Of a stretch of DNA of 47,644 nucleotides, positions 2,275-20,670 are shown piece after piece; the first letter of the stretch is position 1; each line of letters starts with the position of its first letter. Made by a program: the position numbers and the translations under genes. The DNA is from a bacterium (lineage in GTDB: Bacteria > Actinomycetota > Acidimicrobiia > Spongiisociales > Spongiisociaceae), in contig JAPPGU010000032.1 of NCBI GenBank assembly GCA_028821265.1, positions 1 through 47,644 on the forward strand. Reading direction: 5' to 3'. A model generated the notes under the pieces. It ran no database searches, was not told where the DNA came from, and saw only the letters and a list, made by a program, of their open reading frames with translations.

Positions 2275-3291
2275 TCAGAAGTCACGATCGACCACGAAAG
2301 CGGCCAGGTCCTCCAACTCTCGGGCTACCTGCTGGTCTATGTCCGCCCCCCTGAGGGCATCAGCCGCCCGCTGCATGCAGTCGCGGGCCGCGGAGACGGT
2401 CGCCTCCCGCCCGCCCGCCTCCTCGACGAGGGCGGCGGCCGTCTCGATCCCGTCGTCATCCAGCCGCTCCCGGGCGTAAAGATCGGCCAGCCTCGTGCCG
2501 GCCGGGGAGCCCGAGGCCAGCGCCACCGCCACCGGGATCGACTTCTTGCGCTCGCGGAGGTCGTTACCGGCCGGCTTGCCGGTCACCGAGGGATCTCCCC
2601 AGATGCCGAGCAGGTCGTCGATGGCCTGGAACCCCCGACCCAGCTCGAGTCCGAAGCTCCGGAGCCGGCGGACCGTCTGCTCGGGCGCGCCGGCCAGGAT
2701 GGCCCCCACCGCCGAGGCATGAGCCAGTAGGGCGCCCGTCTTGAGAGAGACCATCTCCCAGCACAGGTCGACATCCACCGCCTCCGAGCGGTAGAACGAC
2801 ATGTCCATGTGCTGCCCGGCGATCATCGACGCGGTGGCTTCCGCCAGGTCGGCGGCCGCGGCGACCCGTGGGGGCGTGGGCCGGTCCAGTAGCAACTCGA
2901 GACCGAGCAGCATCATGGCATCACCCGCGATGATGGCATCGCCGGCGCCGAAGGTCTTCCATACCGTGGCCCGGTGCCGGCGTTCGGCATCGTTGTCGAT
3001 GATGTCGTCGTGGACGAGCGAGAAATTGTGAACGATCTCCACCGCGAGCGCCCCCGGTAGGGCGACCTCGGCCGCCGCGCCCACGGCTTCCGCCGACAGG
3101 AGCGCAAGCGTGGGCCGGATGCCCTTGCCGTGGCGCGGGTTCGGCACCGGAGCCCCCGCCGAGTCGACCCACCCGAAGTGGTAGCGGACCAGGACAGCCA
3201 GGCTCGAGGACAGCCGTCCCACCGCCTCGATCATGGCGGGTTCGACCATGACTTGGGTCCGCTCCAGCAAGTCCGGTGTGGTGCGCCTCAC
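2275..3291 (-). CDS. Short-chain polyprenyl (farnesyl/geranylgeranyl) diphosphate synthase
   Basis: An all-alpha prenyltransferase that condenses IPP with allylic diphosphates and would supply farnesyl or geranylgeranyl diphosphate to the squalene genes upstream. The first Asp-rich motif is DDIID at 95-99. The second, DDLLGIWGD, lies near residue 230, and the GKGIRP motif binding IPP is at 55-60. A Phe five residues before the first Asp (F90) fits C15-C20 products. The GTG at 3291 is preferred because it overlaps the hpnE stop as GTGA, has GAGGGGG about seven bases upstream, and includes the conserved LLERTQVMVEPA segment. The alternative is ATG at 3249, which would truncate that segment. The protein has 338 residues. 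It is the last gene of the coupled hpnC-D-E operon; 136 bases separate it from the ABC ATPase gene. Confidence 0.92.
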   Translation of the reverse strand: MRRTTPDLLERTQVMVEPAMIEAVGRLSSSLAVLVRYHFGWVDSAGAPVPNPRHGKGIRPTLALLSAEAVGAAAEVALPGALAVEIVHNFSLVHDDIIDNDAERRHRATVWKTFGAGDAIIAGDAMMLLGLELLLDRPTPPRVAAAADLAEATASMIAGQHMDMSFYRSEAVDVDLCWEMVSLKTGALLAHASAVGAILAGAPEQTVRRLRSFGLELGRGFQAIDDLLGIWGDPSVTGKPAGNDLRERKKSIPVAVALASGSPAGTRLADLYARERLDDDGIETAAALVEEAGGREATVSAARDCMQRAADALRGADIDQQVARELEDLAAFVVDRDF

Positions 3292-4676: not shown

Positions 4677-5548
4677 GGCTGCAGACCGGAGATGCTACGA
4701 ACCGCCACCAGGCCCTTCTCCCAGGCCGGTAGGCTGACGCGCTCGGTCAGGGGAAGGGTGGGCTGGGCGCGCATCCGCCGCAGGAGCCGCCGGTATATTC
4801 CCGCCATCGCGGCCGTGCAGGATCGGCTGCGGTGATCGAGGTGCGCCAGCAGCGCGAGGCCGCTGTCGAACCAGACCGAGGCCTGACCCGCCACGTACTC
4901 GACCATGTCACCGACCCGCTCCGGCGGGGTCCACCGTCCCGGCGCGATGCCGAAGCGATCCCGTTCCTGCTCGGGAAGGTAAATACGCCCCATGCGAAGG
5001 TCCTCCACGATGTCCCGGAGCATGTTGGTCAGCTGGAAGGCCACTCCCAGGTCATCGGCCATCCGGTGGGCCTCGCTCTCCCCTACCGGCTCCCGCCTCC
5101 GGCCGGCTCGGGTGCCGAACACGCCGAGCGAGAGGCGTCCCACCGACCCCGCCACCAGCCGGCAGTAACGGACCGTGTCCTCCATCGTGGCGTACTCCGC
5201 GCCCCGCACGTCCATCTCGCAACCCTCGACGATCTCGTGCAGTGCCCCCACCGGGATCGGGTAACGCTCCGCGGCGTCGGCCAGGGCCACCAGTACGGGA
5301 TCGTCGCGGTCCTCCACGTCACCGGCGCGAAGGCTCTCTATCGCCCCGTGGAGTTTCTCCAGTTCCTCGAACTTGCGGTCACTGGGCCAGGTCCCGTCTC
5401 CGACGTCGTCGATACGCCTCGCCATGGCATAGAGAGCGGCCATCGCCCGGCGCTTGGGTGGAGGGAGCAACCGGATGCCGTAGGCGAAGTTGCGGGCCGC
5501 CTCCCAGGTGATCCGCTCGCAGCTCTCGTATGCGCGCTCGGGGGTCAC
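4673..5548 (-). CDS. hpnD: Presqualene diphosphate synthase HpnD
   Basis: A squalene/phytoene synthase family enzyme that joins two farnesyl diphosphates head to head to presqualene diphosphate. The two metal-binding Asp-rich motifs are present: RRIDDVGD with D47, D48 and D51, and LRDIVEDLRMGRIYLP with D179, E182 and D183. The length of 291 residues is normal for HpnD. The start overlaps the hpnC stop (ATGA), so the three hpn genes form one translational relay. A stand-alone CrtB would be the alternative, but the tandem arrangement with a second, more divergent synthase and an HpnE-like oxidoreductase is the accepted signature of the HpnCDE squalene pathway. A hopene cyclase gene is not in this window. 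Confidence 0.93.
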   Translation of the reverse strand: MTPERAYESCERITWEAARNFAYGIRLLPPPKRRAMAALYAMARRIDDVGDGTWPSDRKFEELEKLHGAIESLRAGDVEDRDDPVLVALADAAERYPIPVGALHEIVEGCEMDVRGAEYATMEDTVRYCRLVAGSVGRLSLGVFGTRAGRRREPVGESEAHRMADDLGVAFQLTNMLRDIVEDLRMGRIYLPEQERDRFGIAPGRWTPPERVGDMVEYVAGQASVWFDSGLALLAHLDHRSRSCTAAMAGIYRRLLRRMRAQPTLPLTERVSLPAWEKGLVAVRSISGLQP

Positions 5549-6501
5549 GAACTTGCTCTCGCGCGGTTCTCCCGGCCGTGCCGGCCCAGGTAGACCGGGA
5601 TGAAGCGGCGGAGTAGGCCTGATCGCCCGGCCTGCCGGGTGCCGCCTAACACCTCGAATCCGGCCTTCTCGATGGCGTCCAATCCCGCCAGCCCTCCCGC
5701 CACGAAGCCGGATATGGCCAGGCGGGCGTAACCGGTCAGGGACCGGACCAGCGGAATGCCCTCCTCGACCAACTCACGAGCGAATCCCGACTCGTAGGCG
5801 ACCAGCTCCCGGAGGGCAGTCCCGGCTTCGGGCGCCGAGAGGTCCTCGACCGAGCACCCGAACCTCGCCATGTCCTCGACGGGCAGGTAGACGCGCCCTA
5901 CGTCCGCATCCTCGGCCACGTCCTGGAGGTGCTCCAGAATCTGGAGACCGCTGCACACCGCGTCCGATGCCGCGAGCCGTTCCGGGGTGGACGACTCGAA
6001 GACCGCCAGCACCAGGTGGCCGACCGGGTTGGCCGACAGGGCGCAGTAGTCGAGCAGTTCTTGGCGCGTCTCGTAGCGGGTCTTGTGCTGGTCCAGACGA
6101 TTGGCCGCCAGCAGCTGATCGAAGGGCCGGCGCGGCACGCTGAAACCTTCGACCATGGGCGTCAGCCGGCGAAACACCGGGTGGCAGGGAGAACCCGAGA
6201 AGAGAGCGTCCAGTTCCGAATCGACCCAGTCAAGGGCGGCCGAGCGGTCTCCCGGGAACTCGTCCCCCAGATCGTCCACGAGCCGGGCGTAACCGTAGAT
6301 GGCCTCCAGGTGGCGGCGCGGTTCTCTGGGGAGCAGGCGAAGCGCAACCGGGAAGTTCTCCCCGCCCGCCTTGGCCATCACCGCATCGAGTTCCACATGC
6401 AGCCCGGACACTCCGGACCCGGCCGGGTACGAGCGCGATCCGTCCGACTCAGTCAGCGAAACCCGGTCGGCCGCCCTCTCGACAGACACCGCACCTCCCA
6501 C
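5545..6501 (-). CDS. hpnC: Hydroxysqualene synthase HpnC
   Basis: The second squalene-synthase-fold enzyme, which converts presqualene diphosphate to hydroxysqualene. Its Asp-rich motifs are RLVDDLGDE (D76, D77, D80) and LQDVAEDADVGRVYLP near residue 215. The ALSANPVGHLVLAVF region is typical of this family. The GTG start gives 318 residues. A second in-frame GTG twelve bases downstream follows GGGAGGT, but at only three to four bases spacing, so the start remains uncertain. A poorly conserved leader of about 35 residues precedes the catalytic domain. It is the first gene of the operon. The 178 bases upstream, after the aldehyde dehydrogenase gene, should hold the operon promoter, but no clear -35/-10 pair was recognised. 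Confidence 0.91.
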   Translation of the reverse strand: MGGAVSVERAADRVSLTESDGSRSYPAGSGVSGLHVELDAVMAKAGGENFPVALRLLPREPRRHLEAIYGYARLVDDLGDEFPGDRSAALDWVDSELDALFSGSPCHPVFRRLTPMVEGFSVPRRPFDQLLAANRLDQHKTRYETRQELLDYCALSANPVGHLVLAVFESSTPERLAASDAVCSGLQILEHLQDVAEDADVGRVYLPVEDMARFGCSVEDLSAPEAGTALRELVAYESGFARELVEEGIPLVRSLTGYARLAISGFVAGGLAGLDAIEKAGFEVLGGTRQAGRSGLLRRFIPVYLGRHGRENRARASS

Positions 6502-6646: not shown

Positions 6647-6680
6647 CCCCAACGGGTTGGGGCCATTAGCCAGTGGCCCC
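6647..6680. terminator. Overlapping hairpins after the aldehyde dehydrogenase stop codon
   Basis: Two mutually exclusive inverted repeats sit directly after the stop of the minus-strand aldehyde dehydrogenase gene. GGGGCCA pairs with TGGCCCC around an 8-base loop (6659-6680). CCCCAA pairs with TTGGGG around CGGG (6647-6662). They share the GGGG run. Neither is followed by a T-tract on the minus strand, so this would be a non-canonical terminator or an mRNA 3' end structure. Confidence 0.35.
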
Positions 6681-8125
6681 TACCAAGCCAGGTACTTCAG
6701 CTCCAGGAACTCCTCCATGCCGTGGTGGCTGCCCTCGCGACCCACGCCTGACTCCTTCACGCCGCCGAATGGGGCCGCCTCGTCCGAGATGATGCCCCGG
6801 TTGAGCGCCACCATTCCCGACTCGATCGCCTCACCCACCCGGAACGCCCGGTTCATGTCTCCCGTGTACACGTACGAGATCAGACCGTGGATGGTGTTGT
6901 TGGCGGCCTCGATTGCCTCCTCCTCGGAGTCGAAGGACACCACCGGAGCCACCGGCCCGAAGATCTCATGACCGAGGATCGCGGCGTCGGGAGCGACCTC
7001 CGACAGAACGGTGGGCTGGTAGAAGTAGCCGGGACCATCCGGCGCCGCTCCGCCGGTGCAGACCGTGGCCTGATCGTCGACCGCGCCCGACACCAGGCGT
7101 TCGATCTTCTCGACCGCGGCAGTGTTGATCATCGGACCGACATCGTTGGACCTGTCGATGCCCGGACCCACCCGGAGACCCGCCATCGCCTCGGTCAAGC
7201 GGTCGGTGAACTGTCGCGCCACGCCGGACTGGACGTAGAAGCGGTTGGCGGCCACGCAGGTCTCACCGGCGACGCGCATCTTGGCCACCACGGCGCCTTG
7301 GACGGCGGCCTCTATGTCGGCGTCGTCGAAGACCACGAAGGGGGCATTGCCACCCAACTCCATGCTGGTCCGGAGGATGCGGCGCCCGGCCTTCTCCATC
7401 AGGATCCGACCGACCTCGGTGGAACCCGTGAAGGACAGCTTCCTCACCCTCGGGTCTTCGAGCATGACGTCAACCACTCCGGAGGAACCCTTCGCCATCA
7501 CCACGTTGACGGTCCCAGGAGGGGCGCCTGCTTCCGCCAGTATGTCCGCCACGGCCAGGGCCGAGAGCGGGGTGTCGGAGGCAGGCTTGAGGATGGTGGT
7601 GCATCCGGCTGCCAGAGCGGGCGCGATCTTGCGGGTCGCCATCGCCGAAGGGAAGTTCCACGGGGTGACCATGAGGGAGACGCCGACCGGCTCGGGTAGC
7701 ACGACGATCCGCTTGTCGCCCCGCGGAGCGGTGCGTATCTCGCCCATGATCCGGACCGCCTCCTCCGAGAACCACCGGAAGAACTCGGCCCCGTACCGAA
7801 CCTCCCCGATGGCGTCGGCATAGGACTTACCGTTTTCGAGGATGATCAGTTCGGCCAGCTGTTCCTCCCGCTCGAGCATGAGGTCGTAGGCTCGGCGAAG
7901 GATGTCCGACCGCCGCCGTGGCGCGGTGGCCGCCCATCCGGGCGCTGCCTCGGCGGCTGCGTCCACCGCCAGGCGGGCCTGTTCGACTCCCGCGGTCGAG
8001 ACGGCCGCCAGCACCTGTTCGGTGGCGGGATCGATGACGTCGAGCTCTCCATCCCCTGCCGTCCAGTCGCCCCCGATCCGGAGCTGGGTCCTCGGACCCT
8101 CGAAGAGCTCGGTTACCACCGTCAT
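6680..8125 (-). CDS. NAD(P)-dependent aldehyde dehydrogenase, succinate-semialdehyde dehydrogenase-like
   Basis: Oxidises an aldehyde to the carboxylic acid in the cytosol. The general base E256 lies in MELGGN, the nucleophile C290 in GETCVAANR, and the oxyanion Asn in TPWNFP (N157). The cofactor-binding SFTGSTEVGR motif is at 231-240, and the closing EIFGPV and PFGGVKESG signatures are present. The length of 481 residues and the GETC(V/A)ANR form resemble GabD-type succinate semialdehyde dehydrogenases; the substrate is inferred only. GGAGG with six bases spacing favours the ATG at 8125 over a GTG one codon earlier. The phosphohexomutase gene lies 33 bases upstream on the same strand, so the two may be co-transcribed, with no obvious pathway link. 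Confidence 0.9.
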   Translation of the reverse strand: MTVVTELFEGPRTQLRIGGDWTAGDGELDVIDPATEQVLAAVSTAGVEQARLAVDAAAEAAPGWAATAPRRRSDILRRAYDLMLEREEQLAELIILENGKSYADAIGEVRYGAEFFRWFSEEAVRIMGEIRTAPRGDKRIVVLPEPVGVSLMVTPWNFPSAMATRKIAPALAAGCTTILKPASDTPLSALAVADILAEAGAPPGTVNVVMAKGSSGVVDVMLEDPRVRKLSFTGSTEVGRILMEKAGRRILRTSMELGGNAPFVVFDDADIEAAVQGAVVAKMRVAGETCVAANRFYVQSGVARQFTDRLTEAMAGLRVGPGIDRSNDVGPMINTAAVEKIERLVSGAVDDQATVCTGGAAPDGPGYFYQPTVLSEVAPDAAILGHEIFGPVAPVVSFDSEEEAIEAANNTIHGLISYVYTGDMNRAFRVGEAIESGMVALNRGIISDEAAPFGGVKESGVGREGSHHGMEEFLELKYLAW

Positions 8126-8158
8126 CACGTTCCTCCCAAAAGGTGTTCGGCCTATCTT

Positions 8159-9886
8159 CTACAGGCCGATATGGCCGGCCAGGTCGGATACCACCGCTCC
8201 GGCATGCCCCTCCAGGTCGCGTTCGACTCCGGACGGGTCATCGGATCCGGTAACCGGCCGGGTGGAATCCACGTACATTTTAAGCTTGGGCTCGGTGCCG
8301 CTCGGCCGGACCAGCACCCGGGTACGATCCTGGAGCCGTAGCTCTACCAGGGACGCTGCTCCCAGCCACCGGGGCCTCCGTTCGGCGCCCTCGCGGTAGT
8401 CGGTCATTCCCACCACCGCCACTCCTCCCAAGGCATCCGGGGGGTCTTCCGCCAGCCGTCCCATGGCGCTGCTGATCTCGCCCGCTCCGGCCGCTCCTGA
8501 CCTCCTGATGCTGTGCTGGATCGAGACCCACAGCCCGAAGCGGCGATACAGCGCTTCCAGCCGGTCGAGCACCGTCTCGCCCCGTCTCCGGCACTCGGAT
8601 GCCAGATCGGCCATGAACAGGGCGGCCGACAGGCCATCCTTGTCATACACCAAGCCCCCCACCGCATGGCCCAGGGCCTCCTCGAAACCGAAGGCCAGCG
8701 CGCCCCGTCCCTCGGCCTCGATGTCGAGCGCCGCGTTCATGATCCATTTGAAACCGGTGAGGGTGGTCTCGAAGCGGGCTCCCCGGGCAGCCGCCACCAG
8801 TCCGGCCATGGGCGAGCTGACGATGGTGCTGACAACGAGAGGTTGCCGGCCGCGAGGGTCCTCGCCGGCCGGCCGTTGCGAGAGGACATAGTCGGTCAGC
8901 AGTACCCCCACCTGGTTGCCGGTGAGGCTGACCCATCCGTTGCGGCCGGGCACCGCCACCCCCAACCGATCGGCGTCAGGATCGTTGGCCAGCACCATGT
9001 CGGCACCGACCTTTCCCGCCAGGGCCAGCGCCAGGTCCATGGCGCCCGGCTCCTCGGGATTGGGAAACGGCAGGGTCGGAAAGCGCCCGTCCGGTTCGGC
9101 CTGCTCGTCAACCGGATGAACATCCCGGTAACCGGCTCCGGCCAGCAGCTCGCGCATGTACCGCCCGCCCACCCCATGCATCGGGGTGTAGACGATCCGC
9201 AGGCGGGGATCGACTGTCGCGGTCGACCGCAGCCGGGCGAGCTCGTCCCGGTACCCGTCCCAGACATCGGGAGAGAGGGGACCTGTCTCCCCGCCTCCCT
9301 GGAGTGGCGCATCCACCACGGGTACATCGACCGCCGCACCCACCCGGTCGATGGCTGCAGAGATGCCGGCGTCCACGGGGGGAATTATCTGGGCGCCGTT
9401 GGCGTCATAGACCTTGTAGCCGTTGTCCCGGGGCGGGTTGTGGCTGGCGGTGATCATCACGCCTGCACAGGCACCCAGGACCCGGACCGCGTATGCCACC
9501 AGAGGAGTCGGAACCTCCTCCTCCCAGAACCTGACCCGGAGACCGGCGGCGCTCAGTACCCCGACCGTGTCGCGCATGAAGTCCGAGCTGGACGGCCGGG
9601 CATCACGGCCCACCACCACCGGAGCGTCCGGCGCTCCCCCGTGGCGGGCCAGCAGGAAGTCGGCCAGCCCGCGGGTGGCCCGTGTGACTGTGGCGCGGTT
9701 CATCCGGTTGGAACCGGCTTCCACGATCCCGCGCAGTCCGGCGGTGCCGAAGGCGAGCGTCCCGTCCATGCGATCCGCCAGCTCGGTCAGGTTTCCGGAG
9801 TCGAGCAGGGCGCTCAACTCGGCTCTGGTGCGGGGATCGGGATCGCCCAGGATCCAGGCCCTGGCCCGCTCCACCACGTCGCTCAT
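8159..9886 (-). CDS. Phospho-sugar mutase (phosphoglucomutase/phosphomannomutase family)
   Basis: An alpha-D-phosphohexomutase that moves phosphate between C1 and C6 (or C5 in pentose relatives). All four domain signatures appear in order: the phosphoserine loop TASHNPP (Ser near residue 148), the metal loop DPDADR near 305, the sugar-binding FGFEEALGH near 395, and the phosphate-binding RPSGTEPK near 540. A length of about 575 residues, with the N-terminal FGTAGLRG motif, fits the long subgroup that includes PGM2-type phosphopentomutases. The exact sugar cannot be told. ATG at 9886 (MSDVVERARAW) is chosen over an upstream in-frame GTG at 9898; neither has a good SD. The gene is last before the restriction island on this strand. 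Confidence 0.91.
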   Translation of the reverse strand: MSDVVERARAWILGDPDPRTRAELSALLDSGNLTELADRMDGTLAFGTAGLRGIVEAGSNRMNRATVTRATRGLADFLLARHGGAPDAPVVVGRDARPSSSDFMRDTVGVLSAAGLRVRFWEEEVPTPLVAYAVRVLGACAGVMITASHNPPRDNGYKVYDANGAQIIPPVDAGISAAIDRVGAAVDVPVVDAPLQGGGETGPLSPDVWDGYRDELARLRSTATVDPRLRIVYTPMHGVGGRYMRELLAGAGYRDVHPVDEQAEPDGRFPTLPFPNPEEPGAMDLALALAGKVGADMVLANDPDADRLGVAVPGRNGWVSLTGNQVGVLLTDYVLSQRPAGEDPRGRQPLVVSTIVSSPMAGLVAAARGARFETTLTGFKWIMNAALDIEAEGRGALAFGFEEALGHAVGGLVYDKDGLSAALFMADLASECRRRGETVLDRLEALYRRFGLWVSIQHSIRRSGAAGAGEISSAMGRLAEDPPDALGGVAVVGMTDYREGAERRPRWLGAASLVELRLQDRTRVLVRPSGTEPKLKMYVDSTRPVTGSDDPSGVERDLEGHAGAVVSDLAGHIGL

Positions 9887-9912
9887 AGAAGCCGACACCA
9901 GTAACCGGCCCC

Positions 9913-10039: not shown

Positions 10040-13000
10040 TCATTGACCCCTACTTCTGGGGGTGCTAGCCGGTAGGGGACTGAACTGCGGTAGGTAGGTG
10101 ACGTCGAAGATTGTCCTCGAGAGCCAGTCGCGGAAGGACTCGTTGTCGCTGAACTGCTTGAACAACTCGGTGTGGACTGCCACCAGTTCCGTCATGGCCT
10201 GTGCCAAGGCATTGTCGTGCTCGATCCGGGCGTTCTGCTTGTCGGAGTTGGCCATCGCGTTCCGATACGCCCTGTTCCCGCCAACTTTCTCCGGTAGTTC
10301 CTCGGTGATCACCTTCTCGACCCTGTCTCGATCCTGCCAGTCGATGCCTCCGAAGAGGTCGTTGAACTCATCGAGGATGTTGGAGAGCAGGTCCATCTCC
10401 GGTTCGGGCTTCTGGCCACCCCCTTCGGTCGGCACCGGCCCGATCTCCGCGTCCTCGTCGGGGAGCTGTATCTCCTGCACCGCCTGCTTCTCCACGCGGT
10501 AGCTGTCCATGTCGATAGCTTCGAGGATCCCCTTCGACAGGTCGTCCTCTACGGGGGCGGGCAACTTGGGAACGAGGAAAGTCAGGAAGATCGACAGCTT
10601 TTCCCACGCGCCGTTGGTGTAGGGCAGGATGGCCGCTAGGAACCCGTAGGACCGGAGGAAGGCCTTCGCCGTGCTCTTGAAGTCCACCTGGCCGTCCTCG
10701 TCCAGTTCCTCCACGTAGATCGAGACGCATCCGTCCAGAATCGGATCGAGCCGGTCGCGGTCTTCGCCGGAGAGGTACCGCTCGACCAACTCCTCCATAT
10801 CCAGCCAGCTGTAGACCTGATACCCATCAAGGGTCGCCTTGAGGTCATGGAGCCTGTCGGGATCGGTTTCCTCCGACAGAATCGTTGTCCGGTAGTAGGG
10901 AGCGAAGGCGAACCTGATCGTGTCGGCGGCGTTCGTGAAGTCGAGCACGAAGGCGTCGTGCTTCTTGGGGTGCGCCCGGTTGAGACGCGACAGCGTCTGA
11001 ACAGCCCTAACGCCCGACAGCGGCTTGTCCACGTACATGGTGTGCAGCAGAGGCTCGTCATAGCCGGTCTGGAACTTGTCGGCGCACACGAGGAAGCGAT
11101 ACGGGTCTTGCTGGATATTGTCGCGGATCAGGTTTGACGAGAAGCCGTTGAGGGACGCCTCTGTGACCGTCTCGCCACCGTACTCGTGCTTGCCAGAGAA
11201 GGCGACGATGGCTTTGTAAGGGCTCTTGGTCTCCGTCAGACACTTCTGGATGGAGTAGAAGTAGTTGACGGCTCGCCTAACGCTGCTCGTCACCACCATG
11301 GCGCGTGCCTGGCCACCGAGCTTCTGCAAGCCAGCTACCTGCTCGCGAAAGTGATCCACCATGATCTCCGCCTTCATCCCGATCGCGTGATCGTGATCCT
11401 CGACATAACGGCGCAGCTTCGCGCGGGCCCGCTTGGAGTCGAACTCGGGATCTCCCTCCACCGTCTTGACCAGCCGGTAGTAGCTGTTCACCGGCGTGTA
11501 GCTCTTCAGCACGTCGATGATGAACCCTTCCTGGATGGCCTGCTTCATGGTGTAGGAATGGAAGGGCGTGTATCTGGTCTTGTCACCTTCGGGAACGGGC
11601 GTTCCGAAGATTTCCAGCGTCTTGTTCTTGGGAGTGGCGGTAAAAGCGAAGTAGCTGGCGTTCTCCAGCATCTTCTTGGACTCCATGATCCGGTTGATCT
11701 TGTCCTCGGTGGTCTCCTCCTCTTCCTCCGCCCCGGCCTCGCCCAGCGCCATCGACACGGCCGCCGATGCCTTCCCTCCCTGGCTCGAATGGGCTTCGTC
11801 GATGATGATGGCAAACGTGCGTCCCCGGTGCTCGTTCCCGATGGCGTCGAGGATGTACGGGAACTTCTGGACCGTGGTGATCACGATCCGCTTGCCCTCC
11901 CGCAGCAGCTTACGGAGGTGTTTGGAGTCCTCGGCATGACCCACGACCGAACCGACCTGGGCAAACTGCCTGATGGTGTCCCGGATCTGGCGGTCCAGTA
12001 CCAGCCGGTCCGTGACGACGATCACGGAGTCGAACAGCGTTCCGCCGCCGCGCTCAAGCCCGATCATCTGGTGAGCCAGCCAAGCGATGGAGTTGGACTT
12101 GCCGCTTCCCGCCGAGTGCTGGATCAGATAACGGTGACCGACTCCTCTAGCGGATGCATCGGCCAACAGTTTTCGCACCACATCCAACTGGTGATGGCGG
12201 GGCCATATCTGCTCCCGCTTCTTTCGCCCGGTTTTGTCATCCCTCGTCTCCACAGTCTGGGCGAAGTTCTCGATGATGTCGGTCAGGCCGTCCGGGGTCA
12301 GGACCTTCTTCCACAGGTAGTCGGTCTTGAGACCATACGGATTCGGCGGATTGCCCGCGCCGTCGTTCCACCCTTGGTTGAAGGGCAGGAACCACGATGC
12401 CTTACCCCGGAGGTGGGTGCAGTAATGCACCTGATGGTCGTCAACAGCGAAGTGGGCGAGACAGCGACCAAACTCGAAGAGCCTCTCCCTGGGGTTGCGA
12501 TCCCGCCTGTACTGCTCGACCGCGTCATCCACCGTTTGCTTGGTCAGGCTGTTCTTCAACTCGAAGGTTGCGATGGGCAGGCCGTTGACGAACAGGCACA
12601 GGTCCAAGGCAAGTTGGGCGTTGTCGTTGCTGTACCGGAGTTGCCTCGTCACGCTGAAGCGGTTCTCCACGTAAAGCGCCTTGGCATTCACGTTCCCGGG
12701 CGACGGCGTTCCGTACATCAGGTCGATGCGGTGCGGCCCGTGATTTACACCCGTTCGCAGCACGTCGATCGTGCCGCGCCTCGTGACCTGTCCCCGCAAC
12801 CTCGCCAGGAACTTGCGACGGGTCGGGTTGTCGTGGCCGAGATTCAGCGCATCAGCAGCTTCGGGCTGGGTGGCTTGGAGGAAGGCGGAAAGATGGGCCA
12901 AGTCGACGCAGTACTCCCGGTCATAGTCCTGCGACCTTCCGCAAATCCATCCCGTTCCATCGCTGGACGGGTGTTCATGCTCGTCTAGATGGGACGCATA

Positions 13001-13069
13001 ACACGGACTGCTTGTCAGCGTCTTGTAGATGAGGCGCTCAAGCCCGGTCTCGCTGATGTCGGTGGTCAT
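10040..13069 (-). CDS. hsdR: Type I restriction enzyme, R subunit (HsdR)
   Basis: The motor and nuclease subunit of a type I restriction complex, which translocates and cuts unmethylated foreign DNA. The N-terminal nuclease shows D156 and E170-x-K172, the same spacing as in classical HsdR enzymes, within a LFVNGLPIATFELKN segment. The SF2 motor follows: Walker A-type AGSGKS at 321-326, DEAH at 425-428, TATPKN near 490 and later helicase motifs (TSSVRRAVNYF, DKFQTGYDEP, LSRLNR). The helical C-terminus reaches residue 1009, a normal length. The ATG overlaps the stop of the small HicB-like gene by four bases (ATGA), so expression depends on that upstream frame. The nuclease and motor residues are intact, so loss of function would come from the broken HsdS alone. 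Confidence 0.95.
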   Translation of the reverse strand: MTTDISETGLERLIYKTLTSSPCYASHLDEHEHPSSDGTGWICGRSQDYDREYCVDLAHLSAFLQATQPEAADALNLGHDNPTRRKFLARLRGQVTRRGTIDVLRTGVNHGPHRIDLMYGTPSPGNVNAKALYVENRFSVTRQLRYSNDNAQLALDLCLFVNGLPIATFELKNSLTKQTVDDAVEQYRRDRNPRERLFEFGRCLAHFAVDDHQVHYCTHLRGKASWFLPFNQGWNDGAGNPPNPYGLKTDYLWKKVLTPDGLTDIIENFAQTVETRDDKTGRKKREQIWPRHHQLDVVRKLLADASARGVGHRYLIQHSAGSGKSNSIAWLAHQMIGLERGGGTLFDSVIVVTDRLVLDRQIRDTIRQFAQVGSVVGHAEDSKHLRKLLREGKRIVITTVQKFPYILDAIGNEHRGRTFAIIIDEAHSSQGGKASAAVSMALGEAGAEEEEETTEDKINRIMESKKMLENASYFAFTATPKNKTLEIFGTPVPEGDKTRYTPFHSYTMKQAIQEGFIIDVLKSYTPVNSYYRLVKTVEGDPEFDSKRARAKLRRYVEDHDHAIGMKAEIMVDHFREQVAGLQKLGGQARAMVVTSSVRRAVNYFYSIQKCLTETKSPYKAIVAFSGKHEYGGETVTEASLNGFSSNLIRDNIQQDPYRFLVCADKFQTGYDEPLLHTMYVDKPLSGVRAVQTLSRLNRAHPKKHDAFVLDFTNAADTIRFAFAPYYRTTILSEETDPDRLHDLKATLDGYQVYSWLDMEELVERYLSGEDRDRLDPILDGCVSIYVEELDEDGQVDFKSTAKAFLRSYGFLAAILPYTNGAWEKLSIFLTFLVPKLPAPVEDDLSKGILEAIDMDSYRVEKQAVQEIQLPDEDAEIGPVPTEGGGQKPEPEMDLLSNILDEFNDLFGGIDWQDRDRVEKVITEELPEKVGGNRAYRNAMANSDKQNARIEHDNALAQAMTELVAVHTELFKQFSDNESFRDWLSRTIFDVTYLPQFSPLPASTPRSRGQ

Positions 13070-13233
13070 GCGTCCCCATCACCGAAGTGGCAAAGAACGG
13101 CATCCTCGACCATAGCCCTGAGATCGGCCCAGTCTTCACCCTGCGTGAAGATGCTGTAGCCCAACGCCCGAGCATCGAAGCCACCCTCCGGGGCCTCGGC
13201 GACCTCGAATAAAATCTCTGCTGGCGCTTCCAT
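13066..13233 (-). CDS. Small HicB-like (DUF1902-type) protein inside the restriction operon
   Basis: A 55-residue protein reading EILFEVAEAPEGGFDARALG, then YSIFTQGEDWADLRAMVEDAV. This is the partial-RNase-H-like HicB antitoxin fold, of the kind often annotated as '2-oxoisovalerate dehydrogenase' fragments. In most genomes such proteins run about ten residues longer and sit beside a HicA mRNA-interferase gene. Here no HicA frame is present, and the protein ends at CHFGDGDA. ATG with GGAGGA four bases upstream is chosen over an in-frame GTG at 13251. The last four bases overlap the hsdR start. The position between hsdS and hsdR suggests either a passenger relic or a leader frame that tunes HsdR translation. 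The family call is by eye. Confidence 0.65.
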   Translation of the reverse strand: MEAPAEILFEVAEAPEGGFDARALGYSIFTQGEDWADLRAMVEDAVLCHFGDGDA

Positions 13234-13282
13234 AGGGTCCTCCACGTTCACAGGCCGCGGTTCTACGTACGCTCCTCCAACC

Positions 13283-14599
13283 TCACGGCAACTGGGCCGC
13301 CGCCTCGCGCACGTCCAGTTTGCCCGTTACCACGTCGGCTACCAAACGGGTGCAGTACTCTTGGACTAGTTCGATCTGACGGTGAGCGCGATTGATGGCG
13401 TCCGCGACTCTTGCAAATTCCCTGCTAACATATGAGAGTAGTTGTTGTTGTTCATCTATGGGTGGCAGCACGACTTTGAAGCGCTTGATATCCTCGCAAG
13501 TGAGCGCGGCCTTTGTGCTGCCCGAAGCACTGCTGATGGCACGAAGTTCGCTATAGGCAGCGGTCAGGTACATATGGAGGTACCGCGACGACACGCGTTG
13601 CGGCTTCGGTGTGATCGAAGCCATATGCTGATTGATCGTCGCTTCTATAGAGAGCACAGCTGACATTCCCCGAGTCTTGCCCTGCCCTGTAATCCCGACC
13701 AATACGCTGCCCGGACGTAAGCGTGGCAAGTGGCACTCACGTAAGGCCAAGTCAGTAACGAATTGCTCCGCATACGTAATAGTACCTTGGTTGACACTGG
13801 AACTATTCAACCAGGCGTGTGTCCCTTCAGTCCAGTAAGATAAGTTGCTTCGTGACGGTGTGGAACCATTGGTTACTCTAGCGAAGTGTCCTACGCGAAT
13901 GATCTCCCAGTGCTCCGGGATGTCGCCTATCCACTTGACGCCGGAGGACTTGAGGCGGACGTTGGGATTGAGGCCGAGTATGACGGCCTAATTGACGACA
14001 GCCCGCTTCTCCTCCTCCAACAGGGCGATGAGTTTTCGCTTCGCGCTGACGTACCGTTGTGCCTGCCAGTCAACGTGGCTGAGGTAACGCACGATGGTCC
14101 GCTGCTCGGAGGGGGGTGGAAGAGGAAGGTAGGAGCGACTCAACGCTGTATAGTCAATGTTCTTTCCTTGCCGAATCCCTGTTACATGTAGAGTCAGGTT
14201 CTCGATATACGGTTTTGACTTGAATAATAACGCGAGATACGCATGTACAGACGCATCCAAAGGATAGAGGACTGTATAGGTGGGGCTTATTATACCTTGT
14301 TCTCGCGCATACTCAATCCCACCCTGGAAAGAGCGGAGACTGATAACAAAATCACCAGTTCGCACTAGTTTCAGAAGATGCAGATTCTTTAGAGCGAGTA
14401 CTGTTCGTTGCTCGTACTGTTCTTTATGAACAACGCCCTTTGTTTGTGTCACAGCAAGCAAGGGTTCATCAGGGTGTCCTTTCTCGCTTCGTTTCTTTAG
14501 GATCGTCTTTACTCGCCGTAGTGCCCAATGCTTTGGCACTTTGTCGAGCCATTCTAAGCCGGACGGCTTATAGTCAGTATAAGTGGAAGGCGTGGTCAT
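13283..14599 (-). pseudogene. hsdS: Type I specificity subunit HsdS, split by one in-frame amber codon
   Basis: HsdS carries two target-recognition domains (TRDs) separated by helical spacers and sets which split DNA site is methylated and cut. The first TRD and spacer (203 residues) end at KRAVVN followed by TAG at 13988-13990. The same frame continues without any shift: AVILGLNPNVRLKSSGVKW, then GDIPEHWEIIRVGHF, the second TRD, and the closing helix ending TRLVADVVTGKLDVREAA. In relatives the junction reads KRAVINQAVTRGLDPNV, so TAG sits where CAG (Gln) is expected, a single C-to-T change. No ATG or well-placed SD follows the stop, so the second half would need readthrough or reinitiation. 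The start ATG has GGAAGGT five bases upstream. The DNA is visibly poorer in G+C than its neighbours. The first half alone is a half-HsdS that could dimerise. Confidence 0.9.
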
Positions 14600-14746: not shown

Positions 14747-16747
14747 CTAGTCCCATCCTACAATCTCTGCCAGCAACCCCTTCGTCCCCCGGTCCAACGC
14801 GAGGATGTCCGCCCGTATCTCCTCAAGAGGCCGCAAGGGCTCGGGCTTGAAGAAGTGGCGGATGAAGCTAATCTCGTATCCGACCCTGATGTTCTTCGTC
14901 GCGTACCAGGCGTCGGGTGCGTGCGGGAGCACCTCCCGGCGCAGAAAGCCCTCGATCCGGCCCTCTTCCAACAGAGGCACCCGTTCGGTGTCCCTTAGGT
15001 CGGGGTCCGGCTCGTACTCGACGATGACCGGTTCGCTGTTGATTGTCACCGCGAACAGGCCGCGCAGGGGGTCTGCTCCCACGCTCCGCTTGTGTATCCT
15101 TCTGATGACCGGCGGCGCGGTGTCGGTGCGTTCGTGTGTTCCCTTCAGGTCCCTTATCTCTCTGATAGTGTAGCGTCGTTCGGGATCCACACCCTCAAGT
15201 CTCAGGGGGCGTTCAACGGTAACCTTGTGGTAACCGAAGGTCTCGTTGCAATATATCTTAGACTGTTCCGTCTCTTCGAAGGCCAGGAATGCATCGCAGA
15301 TACGCTCTATATCCTTCTTCGATAGTTCACAGTTCTTCTTACCCAAGTTCTTGCGCAGCGGTCCGTACCACTGAGTGGCGTCGATGAGTTGTACATAGCC
15401 GCGGCGGTGGGCTGGCTTGCGGTTGCTGAGTATCCAAATGTAGGTGGCAATGCCGGTGTTGTAGAACATGTTGAGCGGTAGCGCGACGATGGCCTCAAGC
15501 CAGTCGTTCTCGATGATCCAGCGGCGGATGTTGCTCTCTCCCTGCCCGGCGTCGCCGGTGAATAGGGAGCTTCCGTTGTGGACCTCGGCGATCCGGCTAC
15601 CGATCTCCGTGTCCTGTTTCATCTTGCTCAGCATGTTGGCCAGGAACATCATCTGGCCATCGCTGGAGCGGGTGATGAGCGAATAGTCGGGTATGTCGCC
15701 GTGCTCTACGACAAAGCGCTGGTCCCTGATGCCCGACTTGCCGCCCATGCGTTGCAGGTCGGTTTTCCAACTCTTGCCGTAGGGCGGATTGGAGAGCATG
15801 AAGTCGAACTCGCGGGCTGGAAAGCCGTCGGAGGCCAGGGTGGAGCCGTACCTCAGGTTGTCGGCCCCGGCGCCCTCACCCTTCAGGATTAGATCCGCCT
15901 TACTGATGGCGTATGTCTCCGGGTTCACTTCTTGGCCGTATAGGTGGACGGATACCTCCTTGTCCCTCTCCCTGGCCAGCTGGGTCAGCGTCTCTTCCGC
16001 GACGGTGAGCATCCCGCCCGTTCCGCAGGCACCGTCGTAAACAAGGTAGGTCCCGGACTCGACCTCATCTGCGACCGGCAGGAAGACTAGCCGCGCCATG
16101 AGCTGCACAACATCTCTGGGGGTGAAGTGCTCGCCTGCCTCCTCGTTGTTCTCCTCATTGAAGCGGCGGATGAGCTCTTCGAAGACGGTGCCCATGCTGT
16201 GATTGTCCAAGCCGTCGAGGCGCACGGAGCCGTCGGCGTTGAAGACGGGGCGCGGGCTGAGGTTCACCGACCCGTCCAGGAACTTCTCCAGCAGGAACCC
16301 CAGCGCGTCAGCTTCGACCAGGGTGGGGATCTGGTTGCGGAACTTGAACTTCTCCAAGACTTCCTGGACATTGGGCGAGAAGCCATCGAGGTAAGCCTCG
16401 AAGTCTGCCCGCAGTTGCTGCTGCCGTGCCCGGGAGGTCAGGTCGCGGAGCCTGAATGGAGACGTGTTGTAGAACGACTCGGCCGCCGCCTGGCGCAACG
16501 CCGCGTCCTGGTTCGCTACACCCGCGGCGTCCAGCTGGGCTTTCATGCGGAGCACAGCGTCTTTCGTTGGCTCGAGCACAGCATCCAGTCGGCGGATGAC
16601 CGTCATAGGCAGGATGACGTCGCGGTACTTCCCGCGCACGTAGATATCGCGCAGCACGTCGTCCGCGATACCCCATATGAAGCTGCTGATGTTCAAAGCG
16701 CTCAACTGCTCTACCTCGTTAGCGGTCGGTTGGGTTCGTACGATCAC
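14747..16747 (-). CDS. hsdM: Type I N6-adenine DNA methyltransferase, M subunit (HsdM)
   Basis: Methylates adenine in the host copies of the site chosen by HsdS. The N-terminal helical domain (LSALNISSFIWGIADDVLRD, then YRDVILPMTVIRRLD) is followed by the SAM-binding motif I YDGACGTGGML near residue 240. The catalytic motif IV is SNPPY with N320-P-P-Y323. A further 340 residues contain the NTGIATYIW segment common to HsdM, then an extended C-terminus. At 666 residues it is of the longer HsdM type. The start is GTG (MIVRTQPTAN) without a strong SD. The vsr gene lies 123 bases upstream on the same strand, and hsdS follows after 147 bases. The catalytic residues are intact. Confidence 0.94.
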   Translation of the reverse strand: MIVRTQPTANEVEQLSALNISSFIWGIADDVLRDIYVRGKYRDVILPMTVIRRLDAVLEPTKDAVLRMKAQLDAAGVANQDAALRQAAAESFYNTSPFRLRDLTSRARQQQLRADFEAYLDGFSPNVQEVLEKFKFRNQIPTLVEADALGFLLEKFLDGSVNLSPRPVFNADGSVRLDGLDNHSMGTVFEELIRRFNEENNEEAGEHFTPRDVVQLMARLVFLPVADEVESGTYLVYDGACGTGGMLTVAEETLTQLARERDKEVSVHLYGQEVNPETYAISKADLILKGEGAGADNLRYGSTLASDGFPAREFDFMLSNPPYGKSWKTDLQRMGGKSGIRDQRFVVEHGDIPDYSLITRSSDGQMMFLANMLSKMKQDTEIGSRIAEVHNGSSLFTGDAGQGESNIRRWIIENDWLEAIVALPLNMFYNTGIATYIWILSNRKPAHRRGYVQLIDATQWYGPLRKNLGKKNCELSKKDIERICDAFLAFEETEQSKIYCNETFGYHKVTVERPLRLEGVDPERRYTIREIRDLKGTHERTDTAPPVIRRIHKRSVGADPLRGLFAVTINSEPVIVEYEPDPDLRDTERVPLLEEGRIEGFLRREVLPHAPDAWYATKNIRVGYEISFIRHFFKPEPLRPLEEIRADILALDRGTKGLLAEIVGWD

Positions 16748-16870: not shown

Positions 16871-17323
16871 TCAGCCCGCCGGTGAATGGTCGGTTGATGA
16901 CCGTGGGCCGTACCGGGCACGGACGACTTTCTCCACGCGATCGGCCGCAGTGGCCGGATCCTCGTGTTCCCAGATTCGGATCACCACCCAGCCGGCCCGT
17001 GCGAGAGCATCGTCGGCAGCACGGTCTCGCCTGACATTCGCGTCGAGCTTCTCCCGCCACCACTCGGAGTTGGTCTTCGGGAAAGTCTCGTGGTCGGGAC
17101 AGCGGTGCCAGAAACAACCATCGACAAACACGGCAACTCGAATCCGAGTGAACACGATGTCGGGTCTGGTTCGTCCGACTTGGGGAAGCGGTAGATCTAT
17201 GCGGTACCGGAGTCCCCGGCGGTGAAGTTCGCGGCGAACCGCCAACTCCGGGCCGGTGTGGCGGCGACGAACCCTGCTCATCCGAGCAGACTCGGCGGGC
17301 GAAGGGCGAACCGGTTCCGACAC
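16871..17323 (-). CDS. vsr: Very short patch repair endonuclease (Vsr)
   Basis: Nicks DNA beside T:G mismatches that arise when 5-methylcytosine deaminates, protecting cytosine-methylated sites from mutation. The Vsr signature is clear: SRVRRRHTGPELAVRREL at the N-terminus, RPDIVF with the metal-binding D55, and FVDGCFWHRCPDH with H73. FPKTNSEWWREKLDANVRRD follows. The length of 150 residues is normal. The upstream ATG (MSEPVRP) is chosen because family members begin before the RMSRVRRRHTGPE segment. The partner methylase is the cytosine methyltransferase encoded divergently about 300 bases away, while on its own strand it precedes hsdM. It could be transcribed with either promoter context, but only the cytosine methylase makes biochemical sense as a partner. 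Confidence 0.95.
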   Translation of the reverse strand: MSEPVRPSPAESARMSRVRRRHTGPELAVRRELHRRGLRYRIDLPLPQVGRTRPDIVFTRIRVAVFVDGCFWHRCPDHETFPKTNSEWWREKLDANVRRDRAADDALARAGWVVIRIWEHEDPATAADRVEKVVRARYGPRSSTDHSPAG

Positions 17324-17617
17324 GCGCCGACGGTACCGGAAGTGTCATAGGCAAGCGATACTCTCGATCCCGAGGCCGCCCGCAGACTTTCACGAGGTGT
17401 GCCAACGGTTCGGGTTGTTGACCAGGTGCTTGAGCAGTCTCCTCATGCCATGGACCGGCACAAGCGGCAACGCGGCCCAGCGCCTCAGTGAACACTTCAT
17501 TCGACCGGCATCCACGATCAACACGAACGAGCGGAGGAACATCCCACTGTGGTAGGAGTCATCAGCATAGGGCGCAACCCGCGATCGGAAGCCGAGAGCT
17601 CGACTAGTGTTCGAGAG
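17324..17617. other. Divergent intergenic region between vsr and the cytosine methylase gene
   Basis: About 290 bases that must contain the promoters for the leftward vsr-hsd genes and the rightward methylase-ATPase pair. No convincing -35/-10 pair or controller-protein box was recognised. A GGAGG at 17533 lies 11 bases before an in-frame GTG (17549), an alternative start that would lengthen the methylase by 23 residues. Confidence 0.4.
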
Positions 17618-18673
17618 ATGGTGGCGGCCACCGAACTCTCCCGCCCGGCAACCGTCGATCTCTTCTGTGGCGCAGGGGGGCTCTCCTACGGGATGAAAAG
17701 GGCAGGCATGAACATCGTCGCCGGTATCGACGTCGACCCGGCTTGCCGTCATCCCTTCGAGATAAACGTAGAGGCCCCCTTCCACGAACGAGACCTAACT
17801 GAAGTATCGGCGAGTTTCGTGGCGTCGCTATTCCCGGAGACCGGATCCCGGGTTCTCGCCGGTTGTGCTCCGTGTCAACCATTCTCAACCTATACCCAAG
17901 GTCAAGACACCGAGAAAGAGCAATGGTCTCTACTCGACAAGTTCGGTGAACTCACTGCCGAGCTGCAACCGGACATAGTCACCATGGAGAATGTACCGCG
18001 CCTTACGGCTCGCCCGGTGTTCGAGACATTCTTATCCGCTCTCCGGGAGTCGGGCTACCGATACACACACCGCATCGTCCGATGCGCGTCTTACGGTGTG
18101 CCCCAGACGAGGTCGCGGCTGGTACTCCTGGCCTCTCGACTGGGCGACATCAATCTCGTCGCGCCGACCCACTCAGATGGCAGTGTTGCGACGGTTCGGG
18201 ACACGATTGGACATTTGGAGTCGATACCGGCCGGCGGTACCGGTGGGTCCGATCCTCTCCACAAGGCAAGCGGGCTCTCCGAGAAGAACCTCAAGCGAAT
18301 CCGCGCGGCGAAGGCCGGGGGAACCTGGCGCGACTGGGAAGAGTCCCTACGGGCTCCTTGCCACAACAGGCCTAGCGGACGCAGTTATCCGGGAGTTTAT
18401 GGGCGAATGGAGTGGGATCGTCCAGGTCCCACCATCACCACCCAGTTCCATGGCTTCGGAAACGGACGATTCGGCCATCCCGATCAAGACCGCGCCATCT
18501 CACTGCGCGAGGGCGCCCTACTGCAGACATTCCCGGCGAGCTACTCGTTCGTTCCCGACGACGGGACCGTGCACATAGCGCCCGTCGCCCGGCTTATCGG
18601 CAACGCCGTCCCGGTCAAACTAGGCGAGGCGATCGGTAGGTCGATCGTTGACCACCTGGAGGAGATGGCGTGA
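17618..18673 (+). CDS. dcm: DNA (cytosine-5-)-methyltransferase
   Basis: Transfers methyl from SAM to cytosine C5 at a specific site. The conserved motifs run in order: motif I DLFCGAGGLSYG (residues 14-25), motif IV GCAPCQPFS with the nucleophile C86, motif VI MENVPR, motif VIII QTRSRLVLLA, and motif X RLIGNAVPVKL. The target-recognition region between VIII and X is short (about 110 residues), consistent with a single site. ATG at 17618 puts motif I about 14 residues in, as usual; an upstream GTG is possible. The gene ends in a GTGA overlap with the GHKL ATPase gene, so the two are translationally coupled. With divergent vsr this forms a methylation-plus-repair set. The recognition sequence cannot be read from the protein. 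Confidence 0.95.
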   Translation: MVAATELSRPATVDLFCGAGGLSYGMKRAGMNIVAGIDVDPACRHPFEINVEAPFHERDLTEVSASFVASLFPETGSRVLAGCAPCQPFSTYTQGQDTEKEQWSLLDKFGELTAELQPDIVTMENVPRLTARPVFETFLSALRESGYRYTHRIVRCASYGVPQTRSRLVLLASRLGDINLVAPTHSDGSVATVRDTIGHLESIPAGGTGGSDPLHKASGLSEKNLKRIRAAKAGGTWRDWEESLRAPCHNRPSGRSYPGVYGRMEWDRPGPTITTQFHGFGNGRFGHPDQDRAISLREGALLQTFPASYSFVPDDGTVHIAPVARLIGNAVPVKLGEAIGRSIVDHLEEMA

Positions 18674-20670
18674 CCACCACCAATCCCAAGTATGAGATGA
18701 CCGTGAGCCTGAATGTGCTCCGGCACCTGGGGCTAGGTCTCTACTCGAACGTGGCTGCCGTACTGTCCGAGGTGGTTGCCAATTCATGGGATGCGGACGC
18801 TCAACATGTGAGCATTTGCATTGACCAGACCGAGGGCCGAGTGGTAATCGAAGACGATGGCCATGGCATGACAGTAGACGACGCCAATCGGAAGTACTTG
18901 TATGTTGGATACGAGCGGCGCAAGACCGAACCATGGACTCCGAAGTTCGGCCGGCCGGTGATGGGGCGCAAAGGGATCGGAAAGCTATCCCTCTTTTCGA
19001 TTGCACAGACTGTCCAGGTCCAGAGCGTCGCTCAAGGCCAAAAGCACGGATTCGTCATGGACTCGGCTGAGATCGAGAAAAAGATCGGAGACGGCGGTGA
19101 AGGGAAATACGAACCAATTCCGGTGCCAGATTTAGAGATAGACCTTGACCGTGGCACCCGTATCATCCTTACGAACATGAAACGCAAGCTTCAATGGACC
19201 GGCAGGCCATTGAGAAGGCGCCTCGCCCGTCGTTTCAGCATCATCGGGCCAGAGCATCGCTTCGAGATCACGCTAGATGGCAAACCTATAAGAGCGACCG
19301 ACCGAGATTATCAGGACAAGGTCCAGTACATCTGGACGTTCGGTGATATGGGTTCCTATGTTGCCACCACGGCCAACAATCTCGAGAACCGGGAAGACCG
19401 ACCCGGTGACTCGGGTGGCCATCCGGTCTGGGTCATTGATGGTTGGATCGGAACAGCCTCGATGGCAGGCCAACTCAAGGATACGGAAACATCCGAGAGT
19501 ATCAACAAGTTGGTAGTTATCGTTCGTGGCAAGCTGGCTCAGGAAGACATCTTGGAAGAATTCGGCGAGGGCGGCCTTTATACCAAGTACATACTCGGTG
19601 AGATTCACGCCGACTTCTTGGACATGGATGATGAAGACGATATCGCAACCACAAGCCGACAGAAGTTGATTGAGGAAGATCCTCGTTACCAAGCCCTCAG
19701 AACCAAGCTCCAGAGTGAGTTAAAGCACATTCAGAGTCGATGGACCGACCTAAGGAGGGAGCAGGGAACCAAGCAGGCCCTTGAGTATCCGGAGATCCGG
19801 GAATGGTTCAAGGAACTGAACACCGACCAGCGAAGGGCAGCGCAGCGTCTATTCGGCCGCATCAACGAACTACCGCTCGAGAATGAAGATGACAAGAGGC
19901 GACTCATGGTCAGCGGTGTTCTCGCCTTCGAGGGTCTGAAGCTCAGAGACATCCTCTACAGACTTGATGAGATATCGACGGAGAATCTGGACGTGCTTCA
20001 GCAGGTGTTTGTCCAACTAGATGATCTTGAAGCTAGCGCCTACTACCAGATCGCCAAGGAGCGTCTACAGGTCATCACGAAGCTCATGAGACTACAAGAT
20101 GAGAATGCCAAAGAGCGGGCGATGCAAGAGCATCTCTACAAGCATCTCTGGCTAATGGATCCTTCCTGGGAGAGAGCAACCCACACCGAGTACATGGAGA
20201 GGAGAATGGAGACGGCTCTCGAAGAGATTTGCGACACGCTGACTCCGGAAGAGAAACGGGCTCGGGTAGACGTCAAATACAGCACGACTGGAAACAAGCA
20301 CGTGATTATCGAGCTCAAACGAGCGCAGAAGCGGGTTACTACCAATGCCCTGAGTGACCAAGTATCAAAGTACTATACCGCCGCCGAGAAAATACTCTCC
20401 GCAGTCGGTCGGGATCACGAACCAGTAGAGATAATCTGCGTCGTAGGCAGGCGGCTGCGTGACTGGGATGATTCGCCTACGGGTCAGGAGCGGTCTCGAA
20501 AGGTCCTCGGAGCCTCTCATGCAAGGGTCGTAATGTACGACCAACTGATTGAGAACGCCTTGCAATCCTACCAAGACTACGTAGACAGCACCGAAGAGGC
20601 AGGGAGGGTATACCGGCTGATCCATCGCATATCAGATCCTGACGCCAAAGCACTAAGCCCGCCTGCCTGA
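18670..20670 (+). CDS. GHKL (HSP90/MutL/MORC-like) ATPase with C-terminal D-ExK nuclease-like region
   Basis: Probably the restriction or effector half of the cytosine-methylase system. The Bergerat ATP-binding fold is intact: N-box EVVANSWDAD (E34, N38, D41), G1 box EDDGHGM (D63, G64, G66), G2 box GRKGIGK (G99-K105). A transducer-like middle domain follows to about residue 330. A helical region then runs to about 520. Near the C-terminus VDVKYSTTG and HVIIELKR give D534, E548 and K550, the pattern of PD-(D/E)xK nucleases. Bacterial MORC-related ATPases linked to restriction genes, and HgiDII/BbrUII-type annotations, have been described with such methylases; assignment to those groups is from memory. 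The GTG start overlaps the methylase stop (GTGA). The gene is visibly poorer in G+C than flanking housekeeping genes, which suggests transfer. Confidence 0.85.
   Translation: MTTTNPKYEMTVSLNVLRHLGLGLYSNVAAVLSEVVANSWDADAQHVSICIDQTEGRVVIEDDGHGMTVDDANRKYLYVGYERRKTEPWTPKFGRPVMGRKGIGKLSLFSIAQTVQVQSVAQGQKHGFVMDSAEIEKKIGDGGEGKYEPIPVPDLEIDLDRGTRIILTNMKRKLQWTGRPLRRRLARRFSIIGPEHRFEITLDGKPIRATDRDYQDKVQYIWTFGDMGSYVATTANNLENREDRPGDSGGHPVWVIDGWIGTASMAGQLKDTETSESINKLVVIVRGKLAQEDILEEFGEGGLYTKYILGEIHADFLDMDDEDDIATTSRQKLIEEDPRYQALRTKLQSELKHIQSRWTDLRREQGTKQALEYPEIREWFKELNTDQRRAAQRLFGRINELPLENEDDKRRLMVSGVLAFEGLKLRDILYRLDEISTENLDVLQQVFVQLDDLEASAYYQIAKERLQVITKLMRLQDENAKERAMQEHLYKHLWLMDPSWERATHTEYMERRMETALEEICDTLTPEEKRARVDVKYSTTGNKHVIIELKRAQKRVTTNALSDQVSKYYTAAEKILSAVGRDHEPVEIICVVGRRLRDWDDSPTGQERSRKVLGASHARVVMYDQLIENALQSYQDYVDSTEEAGRVYRLIHRISDPDAKALSPPA

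Follow-up and report, generated by a model that had tools for sequence, protein, structure and literature searches.

An in-frame amber codon between the two halves of a type I HsdS gene: a disabled system or a half-size specificity subunit?

Introduction

What becomes of a type I restriction-modification system when a single nonsense codon separates the two halves of its specificity gene, while the rest of the gene remains in frame? This question is raised by the hsdS gene of a type I operon, hsdM-hsdS-hsdR, that is encoded on the minus strand of the window, that is, the whole stretch of 47,644 nucleotides analyzed here, which comes from a fragmented genome assembly (2.6 Mb in 87 contigs, 84.6% complete). 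An earlier note on this DNA, made from the sequence alone, placed the stop codon exactly at the border between the domains and proposed that the product could be a half-HsdS that dimerizes and reads a symmetric target, that the system could be switched off, or that the codon could be read through. Here we examine the codon, its place in the predicted protein structure and the HsdS genes of relatives, and weigh these possibilities against each other.

The interrupted gene and its operon

The three genes of the operon are adjacent and belong to the right families according to Pfam, NCBIfam and PADLOC, with NCBIfam scores that are below the model cut-offs. Both genes that flank hsdS match their families and look intact, as the earlier note had stated: hsdM (14747-16747, minus strand), encoding the N6-adenine methyltransferase, is an open frame of 666 aa that ends with TAG and contains the motifs DGACGTGG and NPPYG, and hsdR (10040-13069, minus strand), encoding the restriction/translocase subunit, is an open frame of 1009 aa with the motifs ELK and DEAH. 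Searches with typed patterns for the nucleotide-binding motif of HsdR gave no match, although HSAGSGKS is legible by eye. Between hsdS and hsdR there is a 55-codon ORF (13066-13233, minus strand) that overlaps the start of hsdR by ATGA, an arrangement that suggests translational coupling; scanned as part of a longer frame (13069-13326), it matched no family of Pfam, NCBIfam or PADLOC.

The hsdS gene itself (13283-14599, minus strand, 438 codons, with TGA as its natural stop) contains a single in-frame stop, TAG at 13988-13990, which is codon 204; 203 codons precede it and 234 follow in the same frame, with no indel, so that this part of the earlier description is confirmed. Encoded in the first half (13991-14599, minus strand) are TRD1, the conserved element at the N terminus and the greater part of the central spacer helix; the linker, TRD2 and the C-terminal helix belong to the second half (13283-13987, minus strand). 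Each half matches the Pfam Methylase_S family, with 22.8 bits for the first and 58.3 bits for the second against a cut-off of 22, and the joined, read-through frame aligns to the PADLOC Specificity_I profile over residues 6-435 (E 1.5e-101). Thus, both TRDs lie in one frame with the TAG between them, and a complete HsdS, with its pair of TRDs and pair of conserved helices, is not encoded as one uninterrupted product. Two compensating indels in the frame were considered and set aside, substitutions being the simpler explanation. A homopolymer tract of the kind that underlies phase variation in NgoAV is absent from the break: no base occurs more than 3 times in a row within the 49 bases around the TAG.

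The third-position G+C of the two hsdS halves, 0.52 and 0.63, respectively, is low next to that of hsdM (0.80) and hsdR (0.82), in keeping with a possible import of the TRDs. Beyond the operon, the window contains a second restriction-modification cluster (16871-20670) with a Vsr endonuclease, a C5 cytosine methyltransferase and a restriction enzyme of the BbrUII/HgiDII family (NCBIfam), as well as an isoprenoid cluster (2275-6501, minus strand) that encodes a polyprenyl synthetase, an amine oxidase-like FAD enzyme and two squalene/phytoene synthases.

The stop codon in the predicted structure

In the AlphaFold2 model of the read-through HsdS (mean pLDDT 91.4), the central spacer helix spans residues 163-208 (13976-14113, minus strand) and the second helix residues 381-424. 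The stop codon does not fall exactly at the domain border, as had been claimed, but within the last turns of the central helix, so that, judging from the model, the truncated product would retain approximately 41 of the 46 helix residues and lose the last five together with the cap that trails the helix. The helix-cap motif, VTxG in comparison with relatives, occupies residues 206-209 (13973-13984, minus strand), just past the TAG, and reads V-I-L-G in the window.

The first half modeled alone (pLDDT 86.5) shows one TRD and a helix at residues 163-202, that is, the composition expected of a half-HsdS. The complete central conserved region that is present in the N-terminal construct of EcoR124I and in the CC398 half-S is missing, the helix being cut at residue 203 and the VTxG motif gone. 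The fold of this model matches HsdS structures, with 1yf2_A as the best hit (E 1.5e-6, TM 0.62 by query length, rmsd 6.7), and the matches include the half-size Esub1 chains 8vsr and 8vsq. As far as the models can tell, dimerization of the 203-residue half is possible, though the engineered forms that are known to work are longer. Structures (PDB 8vsq, 8vsr) exist of Esub1, an HsdS-like protein of half size (about 200 residues), both by itself and together with a protein named Prx; our literature search gave no paper that describes it.

The junction in the HsdS family

For comparison, we used 131 of 170 fetched loci in which the HsdS match spans the profile from position 30 or earlier to position 405 or later. 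The residue replaced by the stop is not a conserved glutamine, contrary to what had been proposed: the column is mixed, with H in 37 relatives, R in 30, Q in 27, E in 24, K in 5, N in 4, and A, S, D and T in one each. A change from CAG to TAG, that is, a C-to-T origin, is plausible, the original codon itself being only inferred, and CAG is found at this column in 10 of the 131 relatives. Nor do the flanking residues match the family as had been thought. At position 207, the window gene has Ile where 126 of 131 relatives have Thr, and at position 208, where 119 of 131 have Lys or Arg, it has Leu, a residue shared with one other relative. In the family, the VTxG motif trails both helices, with Val-Thr at 206-207 in 122 of 131 relatives and Thr-Gly at 425-426 in 129 of 131 (in L028 and L031, the aligned stretch stops short of 425-426).

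Overall, the window gene departs from 1 of 23 conserved positions in the first half and from 3 of 38 in the second, compared with means of 1.16 and 1.59 among the relatives, 19% of which show at least three departures in the second half. Because the second half is nearly clean, the mutation appears to be recent; judging from these counts, thus, either the mutation in hsdS is recent or the copy may still be under constraint. Of the three departures in the second half, two, those at 207 and 208, sit directly past the TAG, 3 and 4 codons on, which would fit a linker that is no longer read, with numbers too small for a firm claim.

The earlier note had also reasoned that the placement of the codon makes a random null mutation less attractive. 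This argument does not stand: the truncation costs the product its helix end and cap, and of the 35 positions in the window hsdS that are one transition away from a stop (codon 204 included), 4 are located in codons 196-250, so a chance stop in this region is not rare. The nonsense codon in hsdS is real and of a known kind, and its placement is less exact than claimed.

Close relatives and the origin of the halves

Among the systems that are closest by HsdM and have an adjoining hsdS (G068, G083 and G121, 72-76% identical), HsdS is unbroken in all three. A further genome, G271 (HsdM 76-77% identical), was left out of this comparison; there, HsdM is split between two frames on a contig of 4.7 kb that carries no hsdS, and an unbroken HsdS is encoded on another contig. 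In nine genomes of the same genus, the system was not seen, the best HsdM matches being at most 48% identical and three of the genomes having none at the threshold. The two halves of the window gene have different nearest relatives: among the best 25 of 106 matches, the first half shares 65-67% identity with its counterparts in L003, L009 and L010, and the second half is closer to those in L004, L007 and L008 (57-62%). Hence hsdS appears to be a TRD mosaic of the usual kind.

The same genome contains a second type I system (locus L124 on contig C83, 6244-9566 and 13064 onward) with an unbroken HsdS of 426 aa, which is followed, in our reading of the sequence, by a short ORF resembling a helix-turn-helix regulator. 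Among the other loci, L163 encodes a natural single-TRD HsdS of 221 aa, followed by hsdR, in which the end LLTGRKRV past the helix is retained.

Breaks in other HsdS genes

The possibility that the stop is conserved among relatives was rejected after inspection of the genome contigs, the phylum of the organism, the viral collection and three further phyla. The 33 loci from genome contigs included one other HsdS with a stop near the junction, L031 from Desulfobacteraceae (25% identical), with TGA at profile position 198; a TAG in L040 that seemed to break hsdS was rejected because it is the end of the L040 hsdM. Within the phylum of the organism (396 genomes, 31 with a match), stops were found only in the window and in G445, and the TAG of the latter is the natural gene end. 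In the viral collection (the best 80 of 99 relatives), the only stops inside matches were two natural ends, and one locus, L204, is without the N-terminal part. The phylum of Flavobacterium rivuli (centered on G450; 395 genomes, 71 with a match) yielded a TAA at 406 in G725, a frameshift at about 213 in G762 and a stop at 304, at a contig end, in G600, the flagged stops of G786 and G752 being natural ends. In the phylum of L007 (centered on G449; 369 genomes, 56 with a match), the one flagged stop, in G1151, is outside the gene, and the phylum of L026 (centered on G451; 368 genomes, 49 with a match) yielded a TAA at 179 in G1541. In the last three phyla, the rescans covered the fetched rows.

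Beyond the window, twelve broken relatives were collected, with breaks scattered over the profile. Within positions 170-235 are those of L031 (TGA, 198), L286 (TAA, 179) and L281 (frameshift, about 213); on the N-terminal side are L289 (before about 81), L309 (about 81) and L204 (before about 80); L287/L310 is broken before 248, behind a transposase-like ORF; on the C-terminal side are L294 (after 274), L290 (after 250), L279 (304) and L269 (406); and L282 is broken on both sides. Breaks near the middle of HsdS do recur. A hot spot at the junction does not emerge from this partly hand-picked sample: 3 of 12 breaks are in profile positions 170-235, which make up 15% of the length, where about 2 would be expected. 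The sample is non-random, since it draws on a set of 22 loci and a further set that were picked for odd-looking rows and several of which are unbroken (for example, L285, L292, L293, L297-L300 and L308), and stops in the poorly aligned TRDs are harder to detect than those in the conserved junction. Cases at contig edges (L195, L237, L248, L288, L295, L162 and L291) were set aside.

Several of these loci merit a separate remark. In L031 (6001-7287), which also stops early close to the contig end, the second half has an ATG (MKDSG) about 50 bases past the TGA, so both halves might be made separately. The frameshift of L281 (G762) is located just past the junction motif, with AVTRGLD in the first piece, which brings this gene nearer to a clean half-HsdS than the window gene. 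The HsdS of L145 (G288, reverse strand) reads as breaking off in TRD2, at profile position 353, and continuing in frame into HsdR-like sequence, a reading compatible with an HsdS-HsdR fusion or a deletion product. In L310 (G1361, reverse strand), the C-terminal half of HsdS comes, in our reading, right after the transposase-like ORF, with no N-terminal half in the 9.7 kb fetched, so this is probably an insertion in hsdS.

The fate of the system

The explanation that we favor, and consider a little better than an even bet, is that a recent nonsense mutation has inactivated the system. Under this scenario, the two-domain HsdS gene of a type I operon gained one nonsense codon; the ribosome would now yield a 203-residue N-terminal fragment comprising TRD1 and some 41 of the 46 helix residues, and the second half would stay untranslated; and the fragment, deprived of the helix end and the VTxG cap, would probably not support assembly of the M2S core. 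As M and R both depend on S, the system would then be off, and harmlessly so. We favor this reading because the helix cap is nearly invariant, the three closest systems with an adjoining hsdS are unbroken, the breaks in other HsdS genes are scattered, a comparable half from Staphylococcus xylosus was inactive in E. coli, and no usual start closely follows the TAG: there is no ATG, GTG or TTG in the first 59 codons past it, and the first such codon is the TTG at 13808-13810 (codon 60), which is located inside TRD2, so that the second half is unlikely to be made separately. The S. xylosus construct, as described in PMC10030836, resembles the window half in that it consists of TRD1 and the central conserved region of hsdS_long, and differs in that it also needs the partner protein hsdS_short, without which it gave no modification in E. 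coli.

Premature stops are reported for 7 of 87 pneumococcal TRD sequences (PMC7557576), and 43 of 92 gonococcal NgoAV loci are predicted to be inactive (PMC9577141). The window gene is like such ordinary broken alleles in that the break is expected to inactivate the system, and the latter differ in that they were not chosen for nearness to the domain border. Against the disabling of the system, one can hold that the first half retains 22 of 23 conserved positions and that the M and R genes are open (which is also expected for a recent mutation), that natural and engineered half-HsdS proteins are active elsewhere, and that the predicted half folds alone.

The latter points argue for the main alternative, a functional half-HsdS, which we consider a serious but minority prospect. 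According to this explanation, two 203-residue halves would dimerize via their helices, each would bind HsdM, and the half-site of TRD1 would be read twice, in inverted orientation. Precedents for such a symmetric dimer, among them the two that the earlier note invoked (EcoR124I and EcoDXXI), are real. The N-terminal part of EcoR124I (residues 1-215) is reported to dimerize and to read GAAN7TTC (PMC2877798); the CC398 half-S, cut right before TRD2 at D220, methylates ACCN5GGT (PMC6158711); EcoDXXI deltaC reads TCAN8TGA (PMC3874165); and NgoAV of Neisseria gonorrhoeae FA1090, whose natural truncation to 208 aa results from a poly-G frameshift, has GCAN8TGC as its target (PMC9577141). The NgoAV locus resembles the one described here in having an HsdS broken near the middle, an N-terminal half accompanied by hsdM and hsdR, and a remnant of the second half downstream (PMC9577141, PMC6789123). 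It differs in having, according to the same sources, a phase-variable poly-G tract and a described symmetric specificity, whereas in the window there is a nonsense codon and no tract; the lengths differ as well, 208 of 410 aa against 203 of 438. In the window, too, the model of the half is confident, with the helix at 163-202 and an HsdS-like fold, and M, R and the first half appear intact.

Against this proposal stands the loss of the helix end and of the cap. The EcoR124I construct shares with the window half the N-terminal TRD, the central region and the expectation of dimerization, but, as described in PMC2877798, it keeps the whole central conserved region, whereas the stop in the window precedes the helix end; in our own mapping, residue 215 of EcoR124I corresponds to approximately residue 245 of the window HsdS, some 40 residues past the TAG. 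Likewise, the CC398 half-S is an N-terminal half with one TRD whose central region is complete (PMC6158711), and the natural single-TRD protein of L163 retains its LLTGRKRV end. The inactivity of the S. xylosus half in E. coli also counts against the proposal of a working symmetric dimer, and we see no sign of selection for the short form. That one mutation has given an asymmetric enzyme a symmetric target, via a self-dimerizing half-HsdS able to dispense with both the helix end and the VTxG cap, strikes us as somewhat more doubtful still; it would be a natural case of specificity switched by a nonsense codon. Among the titles and abstracts of the matches listed in our literature search, there was no nonsense-made half-HsdS in an uncultured bacterium.

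It is improbable that the codon is an assembly error or a minority variant, with most cells carrying a sense codon at 13988-13990. The fragmented and incomplete assembly leaves room for such an error, as does the intact appearance of the rest of the second half, but the two departures from near-invariant residues at 207 and 208 would not be produced by an error in one base and so speak against it.

Read-through, whereby amber suppression would provide enough full-length HsdS, seems very unlikely, although the frame past the stop is open and mostly conserved. A recoded TAG is contradicted by its use as the stop of hsdM and of two other long ORFs (6680-8128 and 8159-9898), and the residues past the stop depart from the family. 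A search for an amber suppressor found no CUA anticodon among the 34 tRNA genes above the Rfam cut-off (loci L060-L089 and L125-L128, anticodons by ARAGORN), and tRNAs for Gln with CTG and TTG are present; this set is incomplete, with no Tyr, Ser or Ile tRNA, which means that either the assembly or the search lacks several tRNA genes. A suppressor could be one of those missing, and this is also a point against a disabled system. Of the options that the earlier note had listed, read-through is thus disfavored, and of the half-size subunit and the null, the null is the likelier. Finally, service of M and R by another S protein in the cell is hardly to be expected: the second type I system does carry an unbroken HsdS, but its HsdM is only 45% identical to that of the window, which makes cross-use unlikely.

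Implications

If the system is disabled, as we favor, the locus would add to the known cases of type I systems inactivated through their S gene, a harmless event since restriction and modification stop together. If, conversely, the half works, a single base change would suffice to create a new, symmetric target, a simple route to a change of specificity. A functional half would, furthermore, test which parts of HsdS are needed for dimerization and would show that the helix cap is dispensable.
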